A stretch of DNA of 20,057 nt from a virus, in the IMG/VR virus record IMGVR_UViG_3300025085_000256, positions 1-20,057 of that record, one strand, 5' to 3'. A program made the position numbers and the translations under genes. Position 1 is the stretch's first letter. Each line of letters begins with the position of its first letter. Shown piece after piece: positions 655 to 20,057 of this stretch. The notes beneath the pieces were generated by a model. The model was not told where the DNA came from. It saw only the letters and a list, made by a program, of their open reading frames with translations, and made no database searches.

Positions 655-1659
655 ATGCCTATCGAAGAAGTTAAAGTTGAGCTTTCACAGGAAAACGAGG
701 ACGTTAAGGAAATCGACATAGAAGAAACTGAAGCGGTCGAAATAGATGTAACGGGCCGCAAAACAGAAGAAGAGTACCGTGCAGAGCAAGAGCCAGAAGT
801 TGAGGACGCAGGAGAGCCTGAACTTGAGATCGAGCTTGTTGACGATACACCTGAAGAAGACCGTGGGCGGGAGCCTATGGAAGAACCACCAGAAGACGTA
901 ACTGAAGAAGAGTTGGAAGGGTACTCGTCTAAAGTTAGAAAACGTATAAACAAGATACAGCGAGGCTACCACGACGAACGCCGTGCGAAAGAATCGGCTG
1001 AACGTGAGCGCCAAGAGGCTGTACGAGTTGCGCAAAAACTAATCGAAGAGAACAAGGCGTTAAAGGGTGACGTTAGTAAAAGCCGAGACGCTTTACTTGA
1101 CCAAGCCAAACGGAACGCAGCTATTGAAGTACTCTCCGCTAAGAAAGCATATAAAGATGCGTACGAAGCGGGCGATGCAGATAAAGTTGTGGAAGCGCAG
1201 GAAAAACTAACGGCTGCTAAAATAAAGGCCGATAAAGTAGCTAACTTTACGCCCGAGCCTTTACAAGAAGAAGATTATAGTGCAACAATAGAGTCTGACA
1301 CCTCTGAACAAGTTGACCCGAAAGCTCAGGAATGGGCCTCGCGCAATACTTGGTTCGGTACCAACACCGAAATGACTGAACTTGCTCGGGGGTTACATAA
1401 CCATCTTGTCTCTAGTGGGGTAGACCCAAGTAGCGATGAGTACTACGAGAAAATAGATTCTCGTATGCAACAAATCTTCCCCGACCAGTTCGAGGATGCA
1501 CCGAAAAAGAAACGAGCTAGTGTGGTGGCACCCGCAACGCGGAGCACATCGCCCAAAAAGGTGAAACTAAATCCATCACAGCAACAGCTTGCAAAGAGAT
1601 TGGGTATTACTTATGAACAGTACGCCCATCAAATGATATTAGACGCGAGGAAAGTTTAA
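655..1659 (+). CDS. capsid scaffolding-like protein
   Basis: This 334-residue protein has the layout of a phage head scaffold. Residues 1-90 are extremely rich in Glu and Asp. Residues 92-200 are charged and helical, probably coiled coil. A conserved-looking segment follows (AQEWASRNTWFGTN near 225-237, then MTELARGLHNHL and a DEYYEKID stretch). A basic linker (KKKR at 284-287) leads to a C-terminal helix beginning KKVKLNPSQQQLAKRLGI (301-318). Scaffolds usually bind coat protein through a small basic C-terminal helix, which this end resembles. It sits before the decoration-like and capsid genes. The start has GGGGGTGAG a few bases upstream, and the stop overlaps the next ATG (TAATG). The assignment rests on composition, layout and position; no protease motif was seen. 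Confidence 0.75.
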   Translation: MPIEEVKVELSQENEDVKEIDIEETEAVEIDVTGRKTEEEYRAEQEPEVEDAGEPELEIELVDDTPEEDRGREPMEEPPEDVTEEELEGYSSKVRKRINKIQRGYHDERRAKESAERERQEAVRVAQKLIEENKALKGDVSKSRDALLDQAKRNAAIEVLSAKKAYKDAYEAGDADKVVEAQEKLTAAKIKADKVANFTPEPLQEEDYSATIESDTSEQVDPKAQEWASRNTWFGTNTEMTELARGLHNHLVSSGVDPSSDEYYEKIDSRMQQIFPDQFEDAPKKKRASVVAPATRSTSPKKVKLNPSQQQLAKRLGITYEQYAHQMILDARKV

Positions 1660-2774: not shown

Positions 2775-3680
2775 ATGGCTATCTCAAGATCCCAGCTCCT
2801 CAAGGAGCTATTACCCGGCCTCAACGCCTTATTTGGCTTGGAGTACGCTAAGTACACCGAAGAGCACAAAGAAATCTTTGAAACAGAGACTTCTGACCGC
2901 TCGTTTGAGGAAGAAACTAAACTGTCGGGCTTCGGTTCGGCTCCAACTAAGGCTGAAGGCTCGGCTATCGAATACGATAACGCGCAAGAAGCCTTCACTG
3001 CACGCTACACGCACGAAACCATTGCGATGGGCTTCTCTGTAACTGAAGAAGCTATCGAAGATAACTTGTATGACTCATTGTCTGCTCGTTATACCAAAGC
3101 ATTGGCTCGCGCTATGGCGTACACGAAGCAGGTTAAAGCTGCTGATATTTTAAACAACGCGTTCGATACAAGCGTTACTTATGGTGATGCTGTTTCATTA
3201 GTAAACACTTCTCACCCTTTAGTGTCTGGTGGTGAGAACTCAAACACTGGTGGTAACGTTGACTTGAACGAAACCTCATTGGAAGCTGCCGTTATCCAAA
3301 TCGGCAAGTGGACTGATGAGCGTGGTTTAAAAATTGCAGCACGTCCTAAGAAACTCATTATCCCATCTGACTTGCAATTCGTTGCAACTCGTTTGTTGGA
3401 GACTGAGGGTCGAGTGGGCACAGCCGACAACGACTTAAACGCCATTAAAACTAATGGTGTAGTCCCAGAAGGCTATGCAATTAACCACTACCTTACCAAC
3501 ACTGGTAACTGGTTCTTAACCACTGACATTCCTAACGGCCTGAAACATTTTGTCCGCGCTAAGATGGCAACCTCTATGGATGCTGACTTCGACACTGGCA
3601 ACAGCCGTTATAAAGCTCGTGAACGTTACTCTTTCGGTGTCTCTGACCCACTGGGTATCTTCGGAGCTGGTTCAGCATAA
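2775..3680 (+). CDS. major capsid protein, HK97 fold (Mu gpT-like)
   Basis: The 301-residue length suits a major capsid protein without a separate delta domain. The N-terminal arm (residues 1-45) is helical and charged. Then come features seen in Mu gpT-type heads: a strand region EAFTARYTHETIAMGFSVTE followed by an acidic helix EAIEDNLYDS (the E-loop/P-domain transition), a spine helix LSARYTKALARAMAYTKQVKAADILNNAF, a TSHPL turn, and the A-domain part (RPKKLIIPSDLQFVATRLL). The C-terminus is a strand pair ending SFGVSDPLGIFG. It has the position and regulation expected: after scaffold and decoration genes, strong ribosome binding site, terminator immediately downstream. No N-terminal cleavage site or protease was recognised in the window. 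HK97 fold is confident from context and pattern; the gpT link is by remembered family resemblance. Confidence 0.88.
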   Translation: MAISRSQLLKELLPGLNALFGLEYAKYTEEHKEIFETETSDRSFEEETKLSGFGSAPTKAEGSAIEYDNAQEAFTARYTHETIAMGFSVTEEAIEDNLYDSLSARYTKALARAMAYTKQVKAADILNNAFDTSVTYGDAVSLVNTSHPLVSGGENSNTGGNVDLNETSLEAAVIQIGKWTDERGLKIAARPKKLIIPSDLQFVATRLLETEGRVGTADNDLNAIKTNGVVPEGYAINHYLTNTGNWFLTTDIPNGLKHFVRAKMATSMDADFDTGNSRYKARERYSFGVSDPLGIFGAGSA

Positions 3681-3816: not shown

Positions 3817-4245
3817 ATGGGTACTACAACTTTTAGCGGGCCAGTTAAGGCCGGTACAATTCGTGAAGGCAGCTCTGCAAACGTAGGTTTCGTAGAGATG
3901 GCTCAAACCGCCGCGTGGACACAAAGCGCTTCTGGCACTAGCACGGGTATTATTATCCCTGCTGGCAGTCAAATTACTGAAATTACTCTATACATAACTG
4001 TTGCTCCTACCGCAGTAGTCTTATCTGGCGGTACATCTGCTACAGCCACTGAGTTATTCACTGCGTTAGCACAGGGTTCTGTGGCTAACGTTATTAAGCA
4101 GGCGTCTACAGCAACAATTACTGATGCAGATGCTTGGGCAGACGTAGGCACTTCTGACGTTACTATCTTCCTAAAATCTGCTAGTGGTAGCACTGGACGT
4201 GGTTATGTAACTGTTAAATACATTCAGAACAACAACCTAGCTTAA
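3817..4245 (+). CDS. post-capsid structural-like protein
   Basis: A 142-residue beta-rich protein, poor in charged residues and rich in Thr, Ser, Ala and Val. It opens TTTFSGPVKAGTIREG, then GFVEMAQ, then an IIIPAGSQITEITLYIT segment and an SGGTSATATELFTAL segment. The pattern of a short N-terminal tag followed by alternating strands and a GGT(S)ATA loop is common in proteins encoded just after the capsid gene of marine podoviruses, which are treated as virion proteins. It is the first gene after the terminator and has its own AGGAG site. I cannot assign a precise position in the particle. No membrane segment or signal peptide. Confidence 0.65.
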   Translation: MGTTTFSGPVKAGTIREGSSANVGFVEMAQTAAWTQSASGTSTGIIIPAGSQITEITLYITVAPTAVVLSGGTSATATELFTALAQGSVANVIKQASTATITDADAWADVGTSDVTIFLKSASGSTGRGYVTVKYIQNNNLA

Positions 4246-4264: not shown

Positions 4265-4747
4265 ATGGCGGTATCATATAACATAGAAACGTTAGCTAAC
4301 ACCGAGCGTAAGTTAGTGGTGAAGTTTGTGTTTGTAAACGACAGCGGTACTGATAACTTACCTCTGACTGACTTTATCGACCCTGCTGACTACACAAGTC
4401 AAGACGGTAAAGCGGGCAGCTACGTGTCCATAGATCGTATGAGTGTTGCCACTGATCCGGGGATGCAGGTAGAACTTGTGTGGGAGTCAGCCGGTACAGA
4501 TTACCTTGCGTGGATGTTTTCAGCCGATGTAACCAATAATACCATTGGAGCTACGTCTGTAGACTTCGCTAGTGGTAGTTGGGGGGGTCTAAGACCCCCG
4601 GGGTTTGGTGGTAACTCCGTTACTGCTAACTCTGGCACAGGTGCGGGTGATGGCGCGGCTACTGGTACGCTACAAATAAAAACTATTGGCGTTTCAGCCG
4701 GTGACAGGTTTACTCTTGTTGTAGAAGGTACTAAACATTATGGCTAA
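4265..4747 (+). CDS. beta-rich virion-like protein, first of two tandem paralogues
   Basis: A 160-residue protein that shares a spaced set of motifs with the next gene: LxNTERKxVxK near the N-terminus (NTERKLVVKF), a central VELVWESAGTDYL strand corresponding to HIEWATSDT, a DFASGSWGGL segment corresponding to DFTTWGGL, and a closing DRFTLVVE strand. The two therefore look like an old tandem duplication. Function is unknown; composition and position fit a virion surface or head-to-tail accessory protein. The gene overlaps its paralogue by 8 bases. It carries a perfect GC-rich hairpin inside the coding region at 4583-4599. Ribosome binding site is weak (GGAAG about 12 bases upstream). Confidence 0.65.
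   Translation: MAVSYNIETLANTERKLVVKFVFVNDSGTDNLPLTDFIDPADYTSQDGKAGSYVSIDRMSVATDPGMQVELVWESAGTDYLAWMFSADVTNNTIGATSVDFASGSWGGLRPPGFGGNSVTANSGTGAGDGAATGTLQIKTIGVSAGDRFTLVVEGTKHYG
4583..4599 (+). other. strong GC hairpin inside a coding region
   Basis: GGGGGTC (4583-4589) and GACCCCC (4593-4599) form a perfect 7-bp stem with a TAA triloop, immediately followed by GGGG. It lies inside the codons for the WGGL-RPPG segment. There is no T-tract, so it is not a standard terminator. It may slow polymerase or ribosomes or protect an RNA end; a chance product of Gly/Pro codons is also possible. Confidence 0.5.
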
Positions 4748-5183
4748 CTTTATTACCAACACTACTTTGGTAAATACCGAACGCAAGATAGTTATTAAGT
4801 ACAGTGAAATTGGTGTTGATGTGACGAGTAACTCTACCACTATAGTGGACATAACCGATTCAGCGTTTAACTCTATAGAGGGTAAAGCACTGACAGGGGT
4901 AGCTATAGAAAAAATCTACTTACTCCCGGCAATAGGTGTTGGTGGTACAGGTCAAATAGCTGGCCACATTGAGTGGGCGACTTCTGATACTGCTACAGAA
5001 GTGCCTATTACTAGCGTTACTTCAGAGTACAGAAACACTGCGGGTAGTACGTTTGATTTTACTACATGGGGCGGTCTAACCAAAGAAGGCACTACTGCTA
5101 ACGGCAATATAAAGTTAGATGTAGCCGGTATAGGTAGCAGTGAAGGGTACGCTTTTATACTTGAGCTGCGGAAGATATTTTAA
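4740..5183 (+). CDS. beta-rich virion-like protein, second of two tandem paralogues
   Basis: This 147-residue protein aligns along its whole length with the preceding gene product: LVNTERKIVIKY at residues 10-21, an EIEKIY-like strand (VAIEKIYLLPA), HIEWATSDTAT, DFTTWGGLTKEG and a final strand YAFILELRKIF. The pair has diverged strongly outside these motifs. The start overlaps the preceding stop by 8 bases and the end overlaps the next ATG (TAATG), so the pair and the basic genes behind it form one translational unit. Function is not known; two copies could occupy different sites of one ring or fibre. Similar WGGL-containing proteins occur in phages of marine bacteria by remembered pattern. 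Confidence 0.68.
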   Translation: MANFITNTTLVNTERKIVIKYSEIGVDVTSNSTTIVDITDSAFNSIEGKALTGVAIEKIYLLPAIGVGGTGQIAGHIEWATSDTATEVPITSVTSEYRNTAGSTFDFTTWGGLTKEGTTANGNIKLDVAGIGSSEGYAFILELRKIF

Positions 5184-5494
5184 TGCGTAACTACTACAAA
5201 AAAGGCGGTAAGGTCAAAAAAGGTTCTATGAAAGGCCACACCATAAGCGGCGGGCAAAAACGCCCTACCAAATCTGGTGCTGGTATGACCGCCAAAGGTG
5301 TAGCTAAGTATCGTCGGGATAACCCCGGAAGTAAGTTAAAAACAGCAGTAACTGAAGACAAACCAACTGGCAAACGTGCCGCACGACGTAAGTCATATTG
5401 TGCACGTTCCGCTGGTCAAATGAAGAAGTTTCCGAAGGCGGCTAAAGACCCTAATTCTAGGTTACGCCAAGCTCGAAAACGCTGGAAATGTTAG
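5183..5494 (+). CDS. small very basic Lys/Gly-rich protein (GMTAKGVAKYRRDNPGSKLKTAVT type)
   Basis: 103 residues, strongly basic. It starts with a short tag MRNYYKKGGKVKKG shared in part with the 55-residue protein at 5869. Residues 33-56 carry the pattern GMTAKGVAKYRR-(D)NPGSKL-TAVT, which I associate with a widespread uncharacterised family in marine and cyanobacterial phages (DUF6321-like; from memory, not searched). The C-terminal part has RKSYCARSAGQMKKF, then KDPNSR, and ends RKRWKC. Such proteins are reported around structural genes and may bind nucleic acid or neutralise DNA charge, but this is unproven. The gene overlaps the previous stop (TAATG) and has GGAAG upstream. Confidence 0.75.
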   Translation: MRNYYKKGGKVKKGSMKGHTISGGQKRPTKSGAGMTAKGVAKYRRDNPGSKLKTAVTEDKPTGKRAARRKSYCARSAGQMKKFPKAAKDPNSRLRQARKRWKC

Positions 5495-5503
5495 GAGCAT
5501 ATT

Positions 5504-5866
5504 ATGCCAGAAGTAGACGGTAAGAAATTTCCTTATACCAAAAAAGGTATGAAGGCCGCTAAAGAAGAAGCGAAAAAATCAGGCAAGAAGATGAAGACCA
5601 AGAAGTACATGGCTGGTGGTATGGCCGGTGGTGCTGCACCTATGGCTGCGGCAGGTGCCCCCGCTATGCCCATGTCTGAGGAAGAGAAAAAACGCAAGAT
5701 GATGGAAGCCATGAAAGCCAAAGCTGGTGGTATGGGTGGCGGTGCCCCCGCGCCCAAGATGCCCGCCATGAAGAGAGGCGGTAAGGTTAAAGGCTATAAA
5801 TCTGGCAAAAAAGTACGCGGTGCGGGCATTGCTAAACAGGGCGTACGTAAGTGTAAGATGCGCTAA
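5504..5866 (+). CDS. Met/Gly/Ala-rich basic protein with GGKVRG-type tail
   Basis: 120 residues in three parts. Residues 1-40 are Lys-rich helix (KKGMKAAKEEAKKSGKKMK). Residues 40-85 are low-complexity Met/Gly/Ala/Pro (MAGGMAGGAAPMAAAGAPAM). The end is a basic tail containing MKRGGKVKGYKSGKKVRGAG and closing IAKQGVRKCKMR. The tail resembles a recurrent C-terminal motif (GGKVRGxGIAxxGVR) in small phage proteins; its function is not known. A clear AGGAG at 5493-5497 sets the start. About one residue in seven is Met, which is unusual, and there is only one Cys. Part of the cluster of four small basic genes; nucleic-acid binding or an internal virion role is a guess from charge. Confidence 0.7.
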   Translation: MPEVDGKKFPYTKKGMKAAKEEAKKSGKKMKTKKYMAGGMAGGAAPMAAAGAPAMPMSEEEKKRKMMEAMKAKAGGMGGGAPAPKMPAMKRGGKVKGYKSGKKVRGAGIAKQGVRKCKMR

Positions 5867-5868
5867 TC

Positions 5869-6036
5869 ATGCCTATGCGTCGGTACTACAAATCTGGCGG
5901 TAAAATATGCGCGAAAGGTAAATCGTGGGCGAAACGTACCTTCGATACTTACCCTAGCGCATACGCTAATATGGCTGCATCTAAATACTGCAAAGACCCG
6001 AATTACGCTAAGGGGTCTAAAGGCAAGAAGAAATAA
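5869..6036 (+). CDS. 55-residue basic protein, small gene easily missed
   Basis: An open frame of 55 codons fills exactly the gap between its neighbours: it starts 2 bases after the preceding TAA and its own TAA overlaps the next ATG (TAATG). The product begins MPMRRYYKSGGKICAKGK, continues with SWAKRTFDTYPSAYANMAA, then KYCKDPNYAK and a Lys/Gly end. The YPSAYANxxAxKYCKDP pattern is, from memory, shared by small proteins in other marine phages. The N-terminal RxYYKxGGK tag matches the 103-residue protein at 5183, and KDPN occurs in both. Two Cys residues are spaced widely. The exact fit, biased Lys/Arg content and recognisable motifs make it a real gene despite its size; the function is unknown. 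It could also start at the internal ATG at 5875. Confidence 0.8.
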   Translation: MPMRRYYKSGGKICAKGKSWAKRTFDTYPSAYANMAASKYCKDPNYAKGSKGKKK

Positions 6037-6326
6037 TGGGTGATCTAAAGAAATGGCGTGACCAAGACTGGGTTCGCATCGGCACTGACGGTAAAGTTAA
6101 AGGTAAGTGCGGTACATCTAAGGACAAGAAAAACCCGGATCGGTGTCTACCACGAAGCAAAGCTAACTCTTTAAGTAAGGGCCAGCGAGCTGCTACCGCA
6201 AAGAAGAAAAAGCGGGAAGGCGCTAAAGGTAAAACAGTTGTAAAAAATACGAAGCCCGCTACCGTTAAGCTACGCACTGGAGGGTTGGCTAGACGAAAAC
6301 GGCATACATGTACTTGTGGAAAATAA
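6036..6326 (+). CDS. small basic protein, DUF5872-like
   Basis: 96 residues, highly basic. The N-terminal half has the order KKWRDQDWVRIGTDGK, then GKCGTSKDKKNPDRCLPRSK, then LSKGQRAATAKKKKREG. I associate this order with a widespread uncharacterised family in phages and large viruses (DUF5872-like, from memory). The last 20 residues are different, RTGGLARRKRHTCTCGK, with a CxC near the end. The four Cys (CG, RC, CTC) could bind a metal, but the spacing is not a standard zinc finger. Start by TAATG overlap with the 55-residue gene; the next gene begins 3 bases after its stop. Nucleic-acid binding is plausible from charge only. Confidence 0.75.
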   Translation: MGDLKKWRDQDWVRIGTDGKVKGKCGTSKDKKNPDRCLPRSKANSLSKGQRAATAKKKKREGAKGKTVVKNTKPATVKLRTGGLARRKRHTCTCGK

Positions 6327-6329
6327 ATT

Positions 6330-7076
6330 ATGGCTACTTCAGGAACTACACTATTTGACTTAGATTTTACTGAAGTTGCTGAAGAGGCGTGGGAACGCGC
6401 TGGTCGTGAGATGCGCACGGGGTACGATTTAAGGACAGCGCGTCGGTCAATGAACTTGTTGACTATTGAATGGCAGAACCGTGGTATTAATCTGTGGACA
6501 ATAGATGAGGGGTATATCCCTTTAGTAAAAGGCCAAGCAGATTACGAACTACCGGCTGATACAGTAGATATTTGTGAGCACAATCTGCGCGTAAGTTCAG
6601 GTAATACCGCTCTCCAAGCAGATGTTAATCTAAACCGTATAAGCGTTAGTACCTACGCAGCTATCCCAAACAAACTGACGCAGGGTAGGCCCCTACAGTT
6701 GTGGGTACACAGACTAGGTGCTGCGGGGACGTACCGGTCGGGACAAAGCTCCGGCACCACTACAACGTTCACTCAAAACTCTCCCTTTGTTACCGTGTGG
6801 CCTGTGCCAGACGAGTCTAGTAAATACCAACTCTACTACTATCGTATGCGGCGTATACAAGACGCTGGGCAAGGTATAGAGGACGGTGATATGCCGTTCC
6901 GGTTCTTACCTTGTGCGGTGGCGGGGCTTGCGTACCATATAGCTATGAAGGTGCCAGAGCTAGCGCCAAGAATAGAGATGTTGAAAGTAGCGTACGAAGA
7001 GCAGTTTACTTTAGCTGCACAGGAAGACAGAGAGAAGACAGCCGCTAGGTTCGTGCCAAGTATAGGGCGCTGCTAA
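6330..7076 (+). CDS. head-to-tail adaptor protein (P22 gp4 / T7 gp11-like)
   Basis: 248 residues. The N-terminal third is helical and carries a pattern typical of podoviral tail adaptors: FTEVAEEAWERAGREMRTGY, then LRTARRSMNLLTIEWQNRGI, followed by NLWTIDEG and strand repeats with the turn ADYELPADTVDI. A central strand region has FVTVWPVPDESSKYQLYYYRMRR, and the C-terminal part is helical again (RIEMLKVAYEEQFTLAAQ). In P22 and T7 such proteins form a ring under the portal that links head and tail. The second adaptor-like protein follows at 7432. The start has only a weak GGA site about 8-10 bases upstream. The gene overlaps the next ATG (TAATG). Fold assignment is by pattern recall; structural prediction would settle which adaptor type it is. 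Confidence 0.75.
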   Translation: MATSGTTLFDLDFTEVAEEAWERAGREMRTGYDLRTARRSMNLLTIEWQNRGINLWTIDEGYIPLVKGQADYELPADTVDICEHNLRVSSGNTALQADVNLNRISVSTYAAIPNKLTQGRPLQLWVHRLGAAGTYRSGQSSGTTTTFTQNSPFVTVWPVPDESSKYQLYYYRMRRIQDAGQGIEDGDMPFRFLPCAVAGLAYHIAMKVPELAPRIEMLKVAYEEQFTLAAQEDREKTAARFVPSIGRC

Positions 7077-16479: not shown

Positions 16480-19400
16480 ATGTGCGGCGGGTGGGTTGGT
16501 AGAGTAACTGGCTTAGATAATTTTCGAGACGAAATCCTCGATGACTTTCTTGGTGTTGTGCCCGGAAAAGGCGGTCTGGTAGGAGACGCGCTTGAGGACG
16601 TAAACGACTTTTTATTTCGTGGCGGGCTTGAAGACGTTATCCGTGATGCTGGTCGTTGGATAGATGACGAGATAATTCAACCTGTATACGAGTTTCAAAA
16701 AGTATTTTTCCAAGTACTTATAGACGACCCACTCTATGCTGCCGCAATGATTACTGCGGGGCTAATCTATCCCCCCGCCATACCCTACATCGTCGCAATA
16801 AAAACAAAATCCGACGGTGGAACATGGGAGGAGGCAATCATAGCGGGGGCAACGGCTTACGTAACGCAGCAAGTAGCGCTACAAGTTGGTGAGTACGTTC
16901 CCGGTATAGAGTCTGAGTTAGCCGTAGCATTAACTGACGCGGGGCTATCTGCTTCCACTGCTGCATCCGTTGCCCAAGTCGCAGTAGGACTTACTGCTTC
17001 TGGACTTACCACTGGCACAATCGAAGTTATATTTGGCGGCAGTTTTAGTGATGGGTTCGCAGAAGGAGCGATTACATACGGTGCGCAGTTCGCTGTAAGT
17101 AAAGCCGCAGGATTTATTGAGGACAAGACTGGATTTGAGTTTAGGCAATCAAAAGCACAGACTGATGCCGATGGCAACGTAGTAACCGACGAGTTTGGTC
17201 AAACGGTGTATGAGACTAACGCTTCGGGTGAAATTGTAAAAGAGTTTAAGAAATTACCTAACGTAGTTCAGGCACTGGTCGTTGACTCCATTGCGGCGGA
17301 GTTACAAGGGAAGGAAATAACAAAAGAACTACTGTTAGGGTCTATATCAAGATCACTCATAACTGAAGAAGTTGTGGGGGAAACATTATCTAAGATAGAC
17401 ACTGCCCTGTTGGGCGGTGATGGCAACCTAACTGAAGACGGAGAATACTTCTTATCGTTTCTTACGCCCGCAGTGCAAGATGCAGCTACTGCGATAGCGA
17501 GTATGGGTGTAGGCGCTGAGTCGGGCGCTGCAGCAGCAAATTTACTACTTGAGGCGGTAGAAGAGTACGGTCTTGAATCATTAGGAGAGGAGTTTGTAAA
17601 CAACGCCTTATTTGCTGTAGACAGTCTGCGAGGCGTTATAGATGAGGTCACCGCCGCTAAAACTGCTCTCGACGAAGCGGTCGTTGGGTACGAAACAGTC
17701 GCAGAGGCTAGGAACGCTATCGCTTCAGAGCTTAATACTATAAGTGAACAGTATCAGCTAGAAATAGACCGTATAGCATCTGACCCTAGTGGTGCGCTGT
17801 ACACCACGTTGGTGGAGCAATTTAACAATAGTTTACAAGCTGTAACTGATGCCGACGGGAACATAAGGTACGAAGTAAAAGCGGGGGATGCGGGGTATCC
17901 TGCTAACTTGGGTTACACTTCAGTGGAAGAGTACTATCGTGATGTTGTTACGCAAACCCCGACCTACATAGACGATAACGGTAACACTCAAGAATACGCC
18001 TCGTTTGAGCAGTTGCAGTTTGGACTACAAGAATCAAAACGCGCTGCGAAGCTATACCAAGATACCCGTGAACAGTATGAAACCCAACTTCTTGACTACA
18101 ACTCACAGTTAGAGGCACTCCAGACTGCGTTTGATACGGCGTCAACGGATTACAAAACCGCCAACGACAGCCTGCTATCCGATGTCGAAGCCCTCGACGA
18201 AGAATTTAAGGTCAACGCTACAGCCCCTGCGATAAAAGAATTCGTGGAACTTATAAACCCCACGTTTAATGCGGATCAATACGTAGCTTTAAATGAGCTA
18301 AACATATCTGCTTTAGATGCGCATAGACACTACGTGGAAGAAGGAGCTAGGTTAGGTTATTTTGTAAGTGACGCCCAAGAAGATGCGTTTGAAAAGAACG
18401 CAATAGGACAGTTACGTTCTGCGGCAGAGACTGCGATAGGCGTCCCAACTGAACGTATGACTACCGCACAGTTAGACGAGTTTAACCGACTTGTGAACAC
18501 TGCGAGCGACGACATTTACTACGATGATCTCGGCAACTTCACTGCTGATAAGGCGATACAGCGAGAGTATTTAGACGCTGAAGGCAACCCGATTGTGGGG
18601 CCATTCACGCCAGAACAAGTAGCTAGTATAGCCAGTGCGTCATTGAGTTACAGTCCTGATTTTGTAAACACCATTGCGGATATAGCTGGTGGTTACGATT
18701 CCTACCTCGCAGGTGAAGGGGCTACTGTAGAAGAGCTACTGGCGCAGGATAAACAGACTATAGCAAAAGCCAACGAGGTTTCGTGGCTGGACGTGCTTAA
18801 CGCTGGCGGAGTCGGTTACAACGAGACTACTGGACGTAAAGAGTATGTGACTGCATTGAAAGACGGGGAAAACAACCTCACGTTTTTTGACGCCATAACA
18901 GGTCAGAACAATTTGTTGGTTCAAGGCCAGTCAATAGACGAGCTTGCGGAGACATCGCCGCAGTCGTGGTACGAAGCTACAAAAGAGATATTTAGCGGAA
19001 TTGCAGAGACAGCAAAAACGCGTATAGGTGATACTGCAGAGTTGATTTCTGAAGCGCAATTAATTAAGTCGCAGGCAAATGAAGAAGTGGGTCGCATCGT
19101 TGCAGATGAAGGTGAGAAAGCCCTGTGGACTGCGGGCATACTGGCCAAACATGCGATTATCGAGTCCCTTGATTTTGCGTTTACCAAAATTGATGAAGCA
19201 GCTATTGCTTTGTTTGATCCCACACAAGCGAGTAGCGTACTTAACTGGAGTCAAGAGGGCGTACAGGCTAAGAAAGATATGCTTCTCACTGCCGCGACGG
19301 ACGCGTATGAGTTTGCCAGTAACATACCTCAATACAAAAAAGATTTCGCTGGAACCACTATCAGTGGGCTGGCGGGGCTTACACAAGATGTTGTCAGCTT

Positions 19401-20057
19401 AATACGATGGTCGGGGGAAAACACAAAAAACACCACCGCGTACCAGTTTGCCGAGAATCTAATACAGACCACCAACGGGTGGAAAACCGATGAATTTAAG
19501 GCTGGTAGTGCTGAGTTAAATCGGAAACTGAGCGCCCGAGCGGTCGATGACCCCAACACCCCACAGAACGAAGCTGTCATAGATACACTGGGTATTATAT
19601 TTGGTGCAGCCGCTGACCACCCTTACGAGTTTGGTCTGGATTACATATATAAAGAAGGTATACAGGAGATTGCCCCTTTAATCGTGGGTGGGTTTACGTA
19701 CGCAGCGGGTAAAGTTGGCGCTGGGGTGCTAGGGAAAGATGTATCAAAGGAGTTCCTCACTAAGCTAGGTTTCGCAGCCTCAGGGCTGACTGACATCGCC
19801 GAAAGTGCTGGGGGTACAACTGAAGCAGCATACGATGAAGCACTCGCGGAAATAGAGGCCGCATTAATAGCTCGTAGAGACAGTAATGAAAACATTACAT
19901 GGTCAAACAAACAGATAGAACAGATAGCCGACTACTATGCGCAGGACATAGCGGTTAAAAACGGTATGTTTGCGGCTATGACCACTGCTGCTTTGTTATG
20001 GGCGGGGAGTGCGGCATTAGAAAAACCCAACATAGGTCTAGGAACTGGCTTCGATAA
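16480..20057 (+). CDS. giant internal virion/ejection-like protein (partial, open at the right edge)
   Basis: An uninterrupted reading frame runs from the ATG at 16480 to the last base, at least 1192 residues. AGGTG at 16467-16471 is the likely ribosome binding site. The start MCGGWVGRV, with Cys at position 2, recalls internal core proteins of T7-type phages, which begin MCW. A hydrophobic segment lies at about 84-107 (PLYAAAMITAGLIYPPAIPY onward). Coiled-coil-like stretches lie at about 388-434 and 514-577. Short Gly/Ala hydrophobic segments follow near 1068-1085 and 1163-1180. Five D-x-x-G-N turns occur between about 229 and 703. A region at 596-630 (FNADQYVALNEL with HYVEEGARLGYF) resembles a widespread YxxxNxD...HYxxxGxxxGR repeat. 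No catalytic motif such as a transglycosylase was seen. A DNA-ejection protein is the best guess from size, place and composition; an adhesin or tape-measure-like protein is less likely. Confidence 0.8.
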   Translation, partial: MCGGWVGRVTGLDNFRDEILDDFLGVVPGKGGLVGDALEDVNDFLFRGGLEDVIRDAGRWIDDEIIQPVYEFQKVFFQVLIDDPLYAAAMITAGLIYPPAIPYIVAIKTKSDGGTWEEAIIAGATAYVTQQVALQVGEYVPGIESELAVALTDAGLSASTAASVAQVAVGLTASGLTTGTIEVIFGGSFSDGFAEGAITYGAQFAVSKAAGFIEDKTGFEFRQSKAQTDADGNVVTDEFGQTVYETNASGEIVKEFKKLPNVVQALVVDSIAAELQGKEITKELLLGSISRSLITEEVVGETLSKIDTALLGGDGNLTEDGEYFLSFLTPAVQDAATAIASMGVGAESGAAAANLLLEAVEEYGLESLGEEFVNNALFAVDSLRGVIDEVTAAKTALDEAVVGYETVAEARNAIASELNTISEQYQLEIDRIASDPSGALYTTLVEQFNNSLQAVTDADGNIRYEVKAGDAGYPANLGYTSVEEYYRDVVTQTPTYIDDNGNTQEYASFEQLQFGLQESKRAAKLYQDTREQYETQLLDYNSQLEALQTAFDTASTDYKTANDSLLSDVEALDEEFKVNATAPAIKEFVELINPTFNADQYVALNELNISALDAHRHYVEEGARLGYFVSDAQEDAFEKNAIGQLRSAAETAIGVPTERMTTAQLDEFNRLVNTASDDIYYDDLGNFTADKAIQREYLDAEGNPIVGPFTPEQVASIASASLSYSPDFVNTIADIAGGYDSYLAGEGATVEELLAQDKQTIAKANEVSWLDVLNAGGVGYNETTGRKEYVTALKDGENNLTFFDAITGQNNLLVQGQSIDELAETSPQSWYEATKEIFSGIAETAKTRIGDTAELISEAQLIKSQANEEVGRIVADEGEKALWTAGILAKHAIIESLDFAFTKIDEAAIALFDPTQASSVLNWSQEGVQAKKDMLLTAATDAYEFASNIPQYKKDFAGTTISGLAGLTQDVVSLIRWSGENTKNTTAYQFAENLIQTTNGWKTDEFKAGSAELNRKLSARAVDDPNTPQNEAVIDTLGIIFGAAADHPYEFGLDYIYKEGIQEIAPLIVGGFTYAAGKVGAGVLGKDVSKEFLTKLGFAASGLTDIAESAGGTTEAAYDEALAEIEAALIARRDSNENITWSNKQIEQIADYYAQDIAVKNGMFAAMTTAALLWAGSAALEKPNIGLGTGFD

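Follow-up and report, generated by a model that had tools for sequence, protein, structure and literature searches.

Small basic proteins with terminal tags beside the head genes of a marine podovirus-like phage are candidate internal head proteins

Four consecutive genes in a viral DNA record encode small, strongly basic proteins (P1 to P4) that we consider rather likely, from comparisons of their sequences, to be accessory internal head (core) proteins that are addressed into the procapsid by short terminal tags. The record is IMGVR_UViG_3300025085_000256, and by "the window" we mean this whole stretch of 20,057 bases. P1 and P3 carry one tag (MRxYYKxGG, the N-tag) at the start, and P2 carries a different one (RGxGxAxxG, the C-tag) at the end.

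To judge by its genes, the window comes from a marine podovirus-like phage that is related to HTVC023P and DSL-LC04. The capsid protein shares 65% identity with its counterpart in HTVC023P (a Pelagibacter phage), 62% with that of DSL-LC04, and 69% with that of Pag-Yong1. The gene order is that of DSL-LC04, in which the flanking genes are annotated as encoding a cement protein and a Pam1-type adaptor. In the window, the cluster lies downstream of the genes for GroES, an acidic scaffold-like protein, and the major head protein, and it sits between decoration-like and adaptor-like genes (Table 1). We view P1–P4 as probable internal head proteins because of this location and because the homologs in P-SCSP2 (a T7-like phage) are encoded between the scaffold and capsid genes. 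None of the three cement/decoration-like proteins matched a PHROG; two of their genes (4265–4747 and 4740–5183) are tandem paralogs with 31% identity and an 8-base overlap. Further downstream, an open frame of at least 1192 amino acids (16480–20055) continues past the end of the window; it likely encodes a large protein that is internal to the virion or is ejected.

Table 1. Features in and around the P1–P4 cluster (positions within the window).
Feature	Position	Strand	Description
Acidic scaffold-like protein	655..1659	+	phrog_28737 (unknown function); net charge -28, with -26 in the first 120 aa
Major head protein	2775..3680	+	phrog_371 (E = 8e-21); 65% identity to HTVC023P capsid protein
Three cement/decoration-like proteins	3817-4245, 4265-4747, 4740-5183	+	Position corresponds to the DSL-LC04 "cement protein"
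P1	5183..5494	+	103 aa; DUF6321, with the domain at about 5279-5485; net charge +29
P1 N-terminal tag MRNYYKKGGK	5183..5212	+	From sequence; tag shared in relatives
P2	5504..5866	+	120 aa mosaic; net charge +25; no family match
P2 C-terminal tag KVRGAGIAKQGVRKCKMR, class A	5810..5863	+	Regular expression matches in related loci
P3	5869..6036	+	55 aa; YPSAYAN module, similar to the N-terminal half of DUF5872; phrog_27331; net charge +13
P3 N-terminal tag MPMRRYYKSGGK	5869..5904	+	From sequence; shared tag
P4	6036..6326	+	96 aa; similar to the C-terminal half of DUF5872; phrog_23735; net charge +24
Head-tail adaptor-like protein (bounds the cluster)	6330..7076	+	phrog_12985; the DSL-LC04 gene at the equivalent place is a Pam1-type adaptor

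A sequence-only reading of this DNA had described four consecutive genes for proteins that are extreme in lysine and arginine, lying between structural proteins and the first adaptor, and our analysis bears this out. The four open reading frames are all present, and their products have net charges of +13 to +29 on 55–120 amino acids and isoelectric points of 10.1–11.3. Small size and strong positive charge are also expected of a T4-type internal head protein. The products of the genes that we tested around the cluster are acidic or near neutral, with one exception (pI of 8.4). The acidic scaffold-like protein is a candidate partner for the basic proteins, given its position and charge. The genes had also been described as linked by overlaps, which is correct for P3 and P4 (1 base) and for P1 and the preceding gene (1 base) but not for P1 and P2 (a gap of 9 bases) or for P2 and P3 (a gap of 2 bases). 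Finally, KDPN had been listed as a second tag in P1 and P3. We discard it: in P1 it belongs to DPNSR, a conserved motif of DUF6321, the context in P3 is KDPNYA, and its presence in both proteins is therefore probably a coincidence.

P1 belongs to the Pfam family DUF6321 (PF19846), which it matches over residues 33–101 with 50.7 bits (the gathering cut-off is 28.5). In the collection that we searched, DUF6321 is found in 317 phage records, mostly from cyanophages and pelagiphages. Whereas P1 is a stand-alone protein with a clade-specific N-tag, many other members are C-terminal domains of long proteins; in PHROG profiles, the domain lies at the extreme C-terminus of phage proteins of up to 928 amino acids. 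The DUF6321 gene of phage C75C1 is also close to head genes. Among 76 DUF6321 loci from bacterial or archaeal assemblies, 26 have relatives of P3 or P4 no more than 5 kb away, often with P3, P4, and P1 as adjacent genes in this order, and these contigs are probably mostly viral. A 188-kb contig filed under Nonlabens xiamenensis (L360; loci are designated by L and a number) has a terminase that is 77% identical to gp17 of cyanophage S-SM1 as well as a DUF6321 gene, and is probably a phage or cyanophage contamination. A locus near the end of a contig from a Pseudomonadales assembly (L336, 3708–5225) has DUF6321 at the C-terminus of a Pyr_redox_2-like protein (E = 7e-70); this combination with a pyridine nucleotide-disulphide oxidoreductase-like protein is a fusion, an auxiliary gene, or a chimera.

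P3 and P4 match phrog_27331 (E = 2.8e-25) and phrog_23735 (E = 3e-27), respectively. A direct Pfam scan found no match of either protein to DUF5872 (PF19197; gathering cut-off of 27.5) at E = 1, so neither is a member by that standard. Instead, a chain of profiles through their relatives suggests that P3 and P4 together, whose genes overlap by 1 base, correspond to a split DUF5872. We infer this because the P3-like protein of DSL-LC04 matches positions 1–39 of DUF5872 and its P4-like protein matches positions 53–106 (20.1 and 24.2 bits, both below the cut-off); because our own HMMs tie the P3 family of the window to the DSL-LC04 homolog (E = 2e-20) and P4 to the homologs in HTVC023P and DSL-LC04 (E = 6e-7 and 3e-7); and because the P4 relative in P-SCSP2 is a DUF5872 protein at 53.3 bits, above the cut-off. 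The two halves of the family are thus two genes in the window. In Roseobacter phage CRP-901 (L390, 146–923), P3- and P4-like genes lie far upstream of the capsid gene and beside a gene that is annotated as HVA1 family and whose product (GDPNMTIKK...RARHNC...WSCKAW) is reminiscent of DUF6321; this genome lacks DUF6321 itself.

The sequence-only reading had offered no described function for such a set, and for function this still holds: our literature search turned up no paper on DUF6321 and only one passing mention of DUF5872, with no described function. It does not hold for the families, as P1 is a DUF6321 protein and P3 and P4 resemble DUF5872. AlphaFold models of P1 and P4 were poor (pLDDT of 63–64), and comparisons with the PDB by fold and by sequence returned no match. 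The conserved cysteines of the modules suggest metal binding or disulphides.

P2 had no family match in scans that included Pfam, PHROG, and NCBIfam. It consists of an N-terminal module (MPEVDGKKFPYTKKG...KKSGKKM), repeats of the YKxGGK type, and the C-tag. The N-terminal module, with its FPYT sequence, is also found at L119 (3965–4144), there with a class B C-tag. As had been noted, P1 starts with M-RNYYKKGGK, P3 starts with MPM-RRYYKSGGK, and P2 has GGKVKGYKSGKKVRG near its end. The element of P2 that truly recurs is another: it is the last 18 residues, with the end VRGAGIAKQGVRKCKMR, and not the internal GGKVKGYKSGKK stretch. Because the YKxGGK motif is internal in P2-type proteins, it may be a binding repeat there rather than an address.

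The sequence-only reading had proposed asking if the YYKxGGK tag recurs beyond chance on unrelated small phage proteins, and it does. Across 118 related loci, 92 of 383 basic open reading frames (ORFs) and 0 of 895 non-basic ORFs have Y[KRAMSN]xGG within their first 9 residues; for shuffled ORFs, the same test gave 0.54 on average and at most 3 (200 sets). The 92 are related sequences, so the independent evidence is that the tag is found on at least four unrelated families. In loci retrieved with P2 and P4, MRxYYKxGG starts P1 and P3. In L029, L038, and L040, it starts proteins of the P3 and P4 types; L038 and L040 additionally have it at the start of a 57-amino-acid protein with KHSxHHSKKHM. 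The P4-type protein of L326 starts with MRAYYSEGG. The tag is absent from the P1 homologs of C75C1, DSL-LC04, HTVC010P, and P-SCSP2. As it is found on unrelated families, far more often than in shuffled sequences, and is missing in other lineages, the N-tag behaves as a transferable unit. (Searching phages with the tags alone, using tblastn, found nothing; these queries are too short and low in complexity.)

Many proteins end with the C-tag. Among 1368 ORFs, [RK]GxGxAxxG has 116 matches, and 110 of these are situated 15–24 residues from the end. RGxGxAxxG is matched 104 times in the 383 basic ORFs, each time at the C-terminus, as compared to a mean of 0.08 after shuffling. The C-tag comes in three classes: VRGAGIAxxGVRxxKMR, RGTGAATKGLYARGPMA, and RGGGVATQGTKFSRNG. 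The window has one copy, while other loci have up to five tagged proteins, and 18 loci have two or more with unrelated bodies. Without the tag, blastp places the bodies in 33 clusters whose borders are soft, due to low complexity, so we speak of about 30 unrelated small basic proteins. The motif can be N-terminal too, because in DSL-LC04 an RGMG-type motif starts both P1 (4971–5255 in L008; MASRGMGIKT) and a small gene before the adaptor (6181–6408; MAGRGMGCATRGGG).

PHROG and Pfam scans of the tagged proteins gave weak matches only, including EF-hand below the cut-off. By inspection, EF-hand-like calcium loops (DKNKDGKISGxDF, DLTGDGKVTQxDV) are present in C-tagged proteins (L116, 6357–6542; L109, 5639–5815; L123, 6580–6768; L119, 961–1497; L093, 3878–4843) and in one small untagged gene of P-SCSP2 (L005, 4171–4296). 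The latter belongs to the same module set, and here too the Pfam EF-hand matches are below the cut-off.

Codon differences indicate that both terminal tags are conserved as protein and not as DNA. Copies of the C-tag within one locus differ at 4.8 synonymous and 2.5 non-synonymous codons, out of 17, and N-tags of different families within one locus differ at 2.4 synonymous and 1.8 non-synonymous codons, out of 8. Because synonymous differences exceed non-synonymous ones, selection appears to act on the peptide. The same comparison rules out that the tags are DNA-level repeats.

In T4-like cyanophages, the modules of P4, P3, and P1 are found in one polypeptide. SSM1_115 of S-SM1, a T4-GC119 protein that is encoded between the terminase genes and is annotated only as hypothetical, has P4-like, P3-like, and DUF6321 modules in one chain, and its relatives are alike (they include P-SSM2 gp114 and a "structural protein" of S-B43). 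Our first P4 profile did not reach SSM1_115; a profile-profile alignment of the module with hhalign did, and it matched P4 to the SLRDWF region (probability 94.6%, E = 7e-8). P3 was linked to T4-GC119 by an iterated profile that included a cyanophage member from S-H34 and excluded SSM1_115 itself. By eye, the P3 of L038 bridges the window-type and cyanophage-type proteins. Whereas the modules are separate genes in the window, the T4-GC119 proteins resemble polyproteins with [ILV]xE[GAS] linkers, and their genes are near myovirus terminase genes.

These linkers have the kind of site that a T4-type prohead protease would cleave, as gp21 of T4 cleaves after L/I-x-E (PMC9026906). In 99 long cyanophage proteins, [ILV]xE[GAS] occurs 251 times, versus 108 times in shuffled sequences; E[GAS] by itself shows no enrichment. 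All 251 sites are in linkers, outside the modules. Glutamate directly precedes DUF6321 at 111 of 126 cyanophage junctions, or 83 of 96 distinct ones (the background is 10.6%). Because the cyanophage sequences are related, all of these counts overstate independence. In the podovirus P1 proteins, this glutamate is not conserved, and the equivalent position follows the N-tag.

Other cyanophage DUF6321 proteins begin like the T4 internal proteins. IPII and IPIII of T4 both start with MKTYQEFIAE-A; in IPIII, the ten N-terminal residues direct the protein to the prohead core, with residues 4 and 7 important for targeting and 8 and 10 for processing (PMC9026906). The cyanophage sequences match IPII and IPIII at these four positions (4, 7, 8, and 10): P-SSM7_194 starts with MKTYSQFIEE-G, and the pattern is the same in L185, L190, L191, and L194. 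At L305, which adjoins gp14-gp15-gp16, a 12-residue leader (MKSYSELKNLTE) is placed directly on DUF6321. We think that the modules are head cargo because T4-GC119 fuses them, because the protease-type motifs are in linkers only, and because DUF6321 proteins have T4-type targeting sequences. PSSM7_191 (L006, 1516–2676), a member of T4-GC190, also has a T4-type start (MKKFSAFLTE-A), and T4-GC190 was detected in virions of S-SM1 (PMC3037559), which argues for head cargo as well. In L202, L203, L250, L278, L300, and others, the gene after T4-GC119 has a T4-type start too (MKSFxQFLSE-S). The heads of cyanomyoviruses may be loaded with many proteins.

The window phage does not fit the T4 route directly, because no prohead protease was recognized among the window genes that we searched and because there is no [ILV]xE site after the tags of P1–P4. 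Nor do the window proteins have a MKTYQEFIAE-type start (they begin with MRNYYKKGGK, MPEVDGKK, MPMRRYYKSGGK, and MGDLKKW). The likeness to IPI–IPIII, which have a capsid-targeting sequence and are processed by gp21, is in the design: small basic proteins with unrelated bodies and one terminal tag, as for P1 and P3. The differences are that the phage is not T4-like, that the tags have other sequences, that one of them is C-terminal, and that there is no sign of cleavage. By analogy, then, the window proteins would work like T4 internal-protein packaging without being members of that system. Short terminal peptides also load proteins into shells in other systems, such as the coat-binding C-terminal tails of podovirus scaffolds and the cargo peptides of encapsulins. 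The tags in the window are similar in being short and terminal, and a sequence relationship is not expected.

The extreme charge of P1–P4, the Gly/Arg-rich terminal motifs, and the repeated YKxGG of P2-type proteins would also suit nucleic acid binders that act in the infected cell (on the phage nucleoid or RNA), with Arg/Lys/Gly tags that make RGG-like contacts with DNA or RNA. We consider this unlikely: unlike RGG repeats, the two tags stand precisely at the end (C-tag) or the start (N-tag) of a protein, the genes are in the head module and not in early regions, and the targeting sequences and linker-confined motifs of the homologs point to the head. A little less likely still is that they are minor components of the capsid or the neck (cement, vertex, or portal plug proteins), located outside or at the portal, with tags that dock to the shell. 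The position between cement and adaptor genes, and of the C75C1 gene near head genes, would fit this, but all of the shell and cement proteins that we tested from the window phage are acidic, and the modules of T4-like phages bear an internal-protein targeting sequence.

The proteins might instead be ejected effectors that reprogram the host or block its defenses, packaged like T4 Alt or IPI, with each module a different effector domain. The internal proteins of T4 are ejected, with IPI acting as an inhibitor of a restriction enzyme (PMC9026906), and tagged bodies turn over greatly between phages. For the set as a whole we find this improbable, as the modules of P1, P3, and P4 have been conserved in a wide range of unrelated phages, which better fits a structural or DNA-condensing role; for P2-type bodies, it is compatible with internal head proteins. 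That the tags have no function as such and are remnants of recombination among repetitive genes is very improbable: the N-tags of P1 and P3 in the window have no synonymous difference and P2-type bodies are low in complexity, but the codon pattern across loci (4.8 versus 2.5 of 17; 2.4 versus 1.8 of 8) largely refutes it.

If P1–P4 are internal head proteins, the small, very basic, cysteine-containing modules would enter the procapsid with or onto the acidic scaffold, before DNA is packaged. They would later associate with the DNA and would probably be left with it or ejected with it. Their role in the head may be to condense DNA, to neutralize the scaffold, or to take part in ejection. The address would be MRxYYKxGG at the start of P1 and P3 (in relatives, also at the start of P4 and of one further family) and RGxGxAxxG at the end of P2-type proteins. 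We favor addressing because the N-tag is on four unrelated families and the C-tag is strictly terminal on about 30 unrelated bodies. Counting against it, the untagged homologs in C75C1 and P-SCSP2 either enter by another route or do not require a tag. Delivery would be specific to each lineage: cyanomyoviruses would use T4-type targeting and cleavage, with either one polyprotein that has protease-type sites between modules or a single module behind a targeting sequence, and the lineage of the window would use terminal tags. A common partner or packaging signal, as the sequence-only reading had suggested, is the best-supported account of a tag that can be transferred among basic head-module proteins of unrelated families, although the P2 tag is a different one and KDPN drops out. 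This account is also favored because, in T4-like phages, the DUF6321 module instead follows a capsid-targeting sequence of the T4 type.

A broader proposal is a serious possibility, though not one that we would bet on: marine podovirus-like phages may have a general cargo-loading code for the head, with MRxYYKxGG as the N-terminal label and RGxGxAxxG (in three classes) as the C-terminal label, each attached to numerous basic proteins that are unrelated to one another and in some cases have EF-hand-like loops. This code would be independent of the T4 targeting sequence in sequence and mechanism, yet it would load the same DUF6321 and DUF5872 modules, which T4-like cyanophages would produce as a polyprotein for cleavage by a protease. 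We found no description of these tags in the open-access literature, and a search for capsid-targeting sequences in cyanophages matched, by title, only papers on T4, SPN3US, and phage P1 and general papers, so both terminal tags appear to be undescribed so far.

The contrast between a polyprotein and separate genes, along with the protease-type motifs that are found only in linkers, gives DUF6321 and DUF5872 a testable function, as internal head proteins. Should the tags prove to be addresses, abundant ocean phages would be a source of cargo-loading peptides, and many orphan basic proteins that are encoded beside capsid genes could be annotated by a rule based on the tags.
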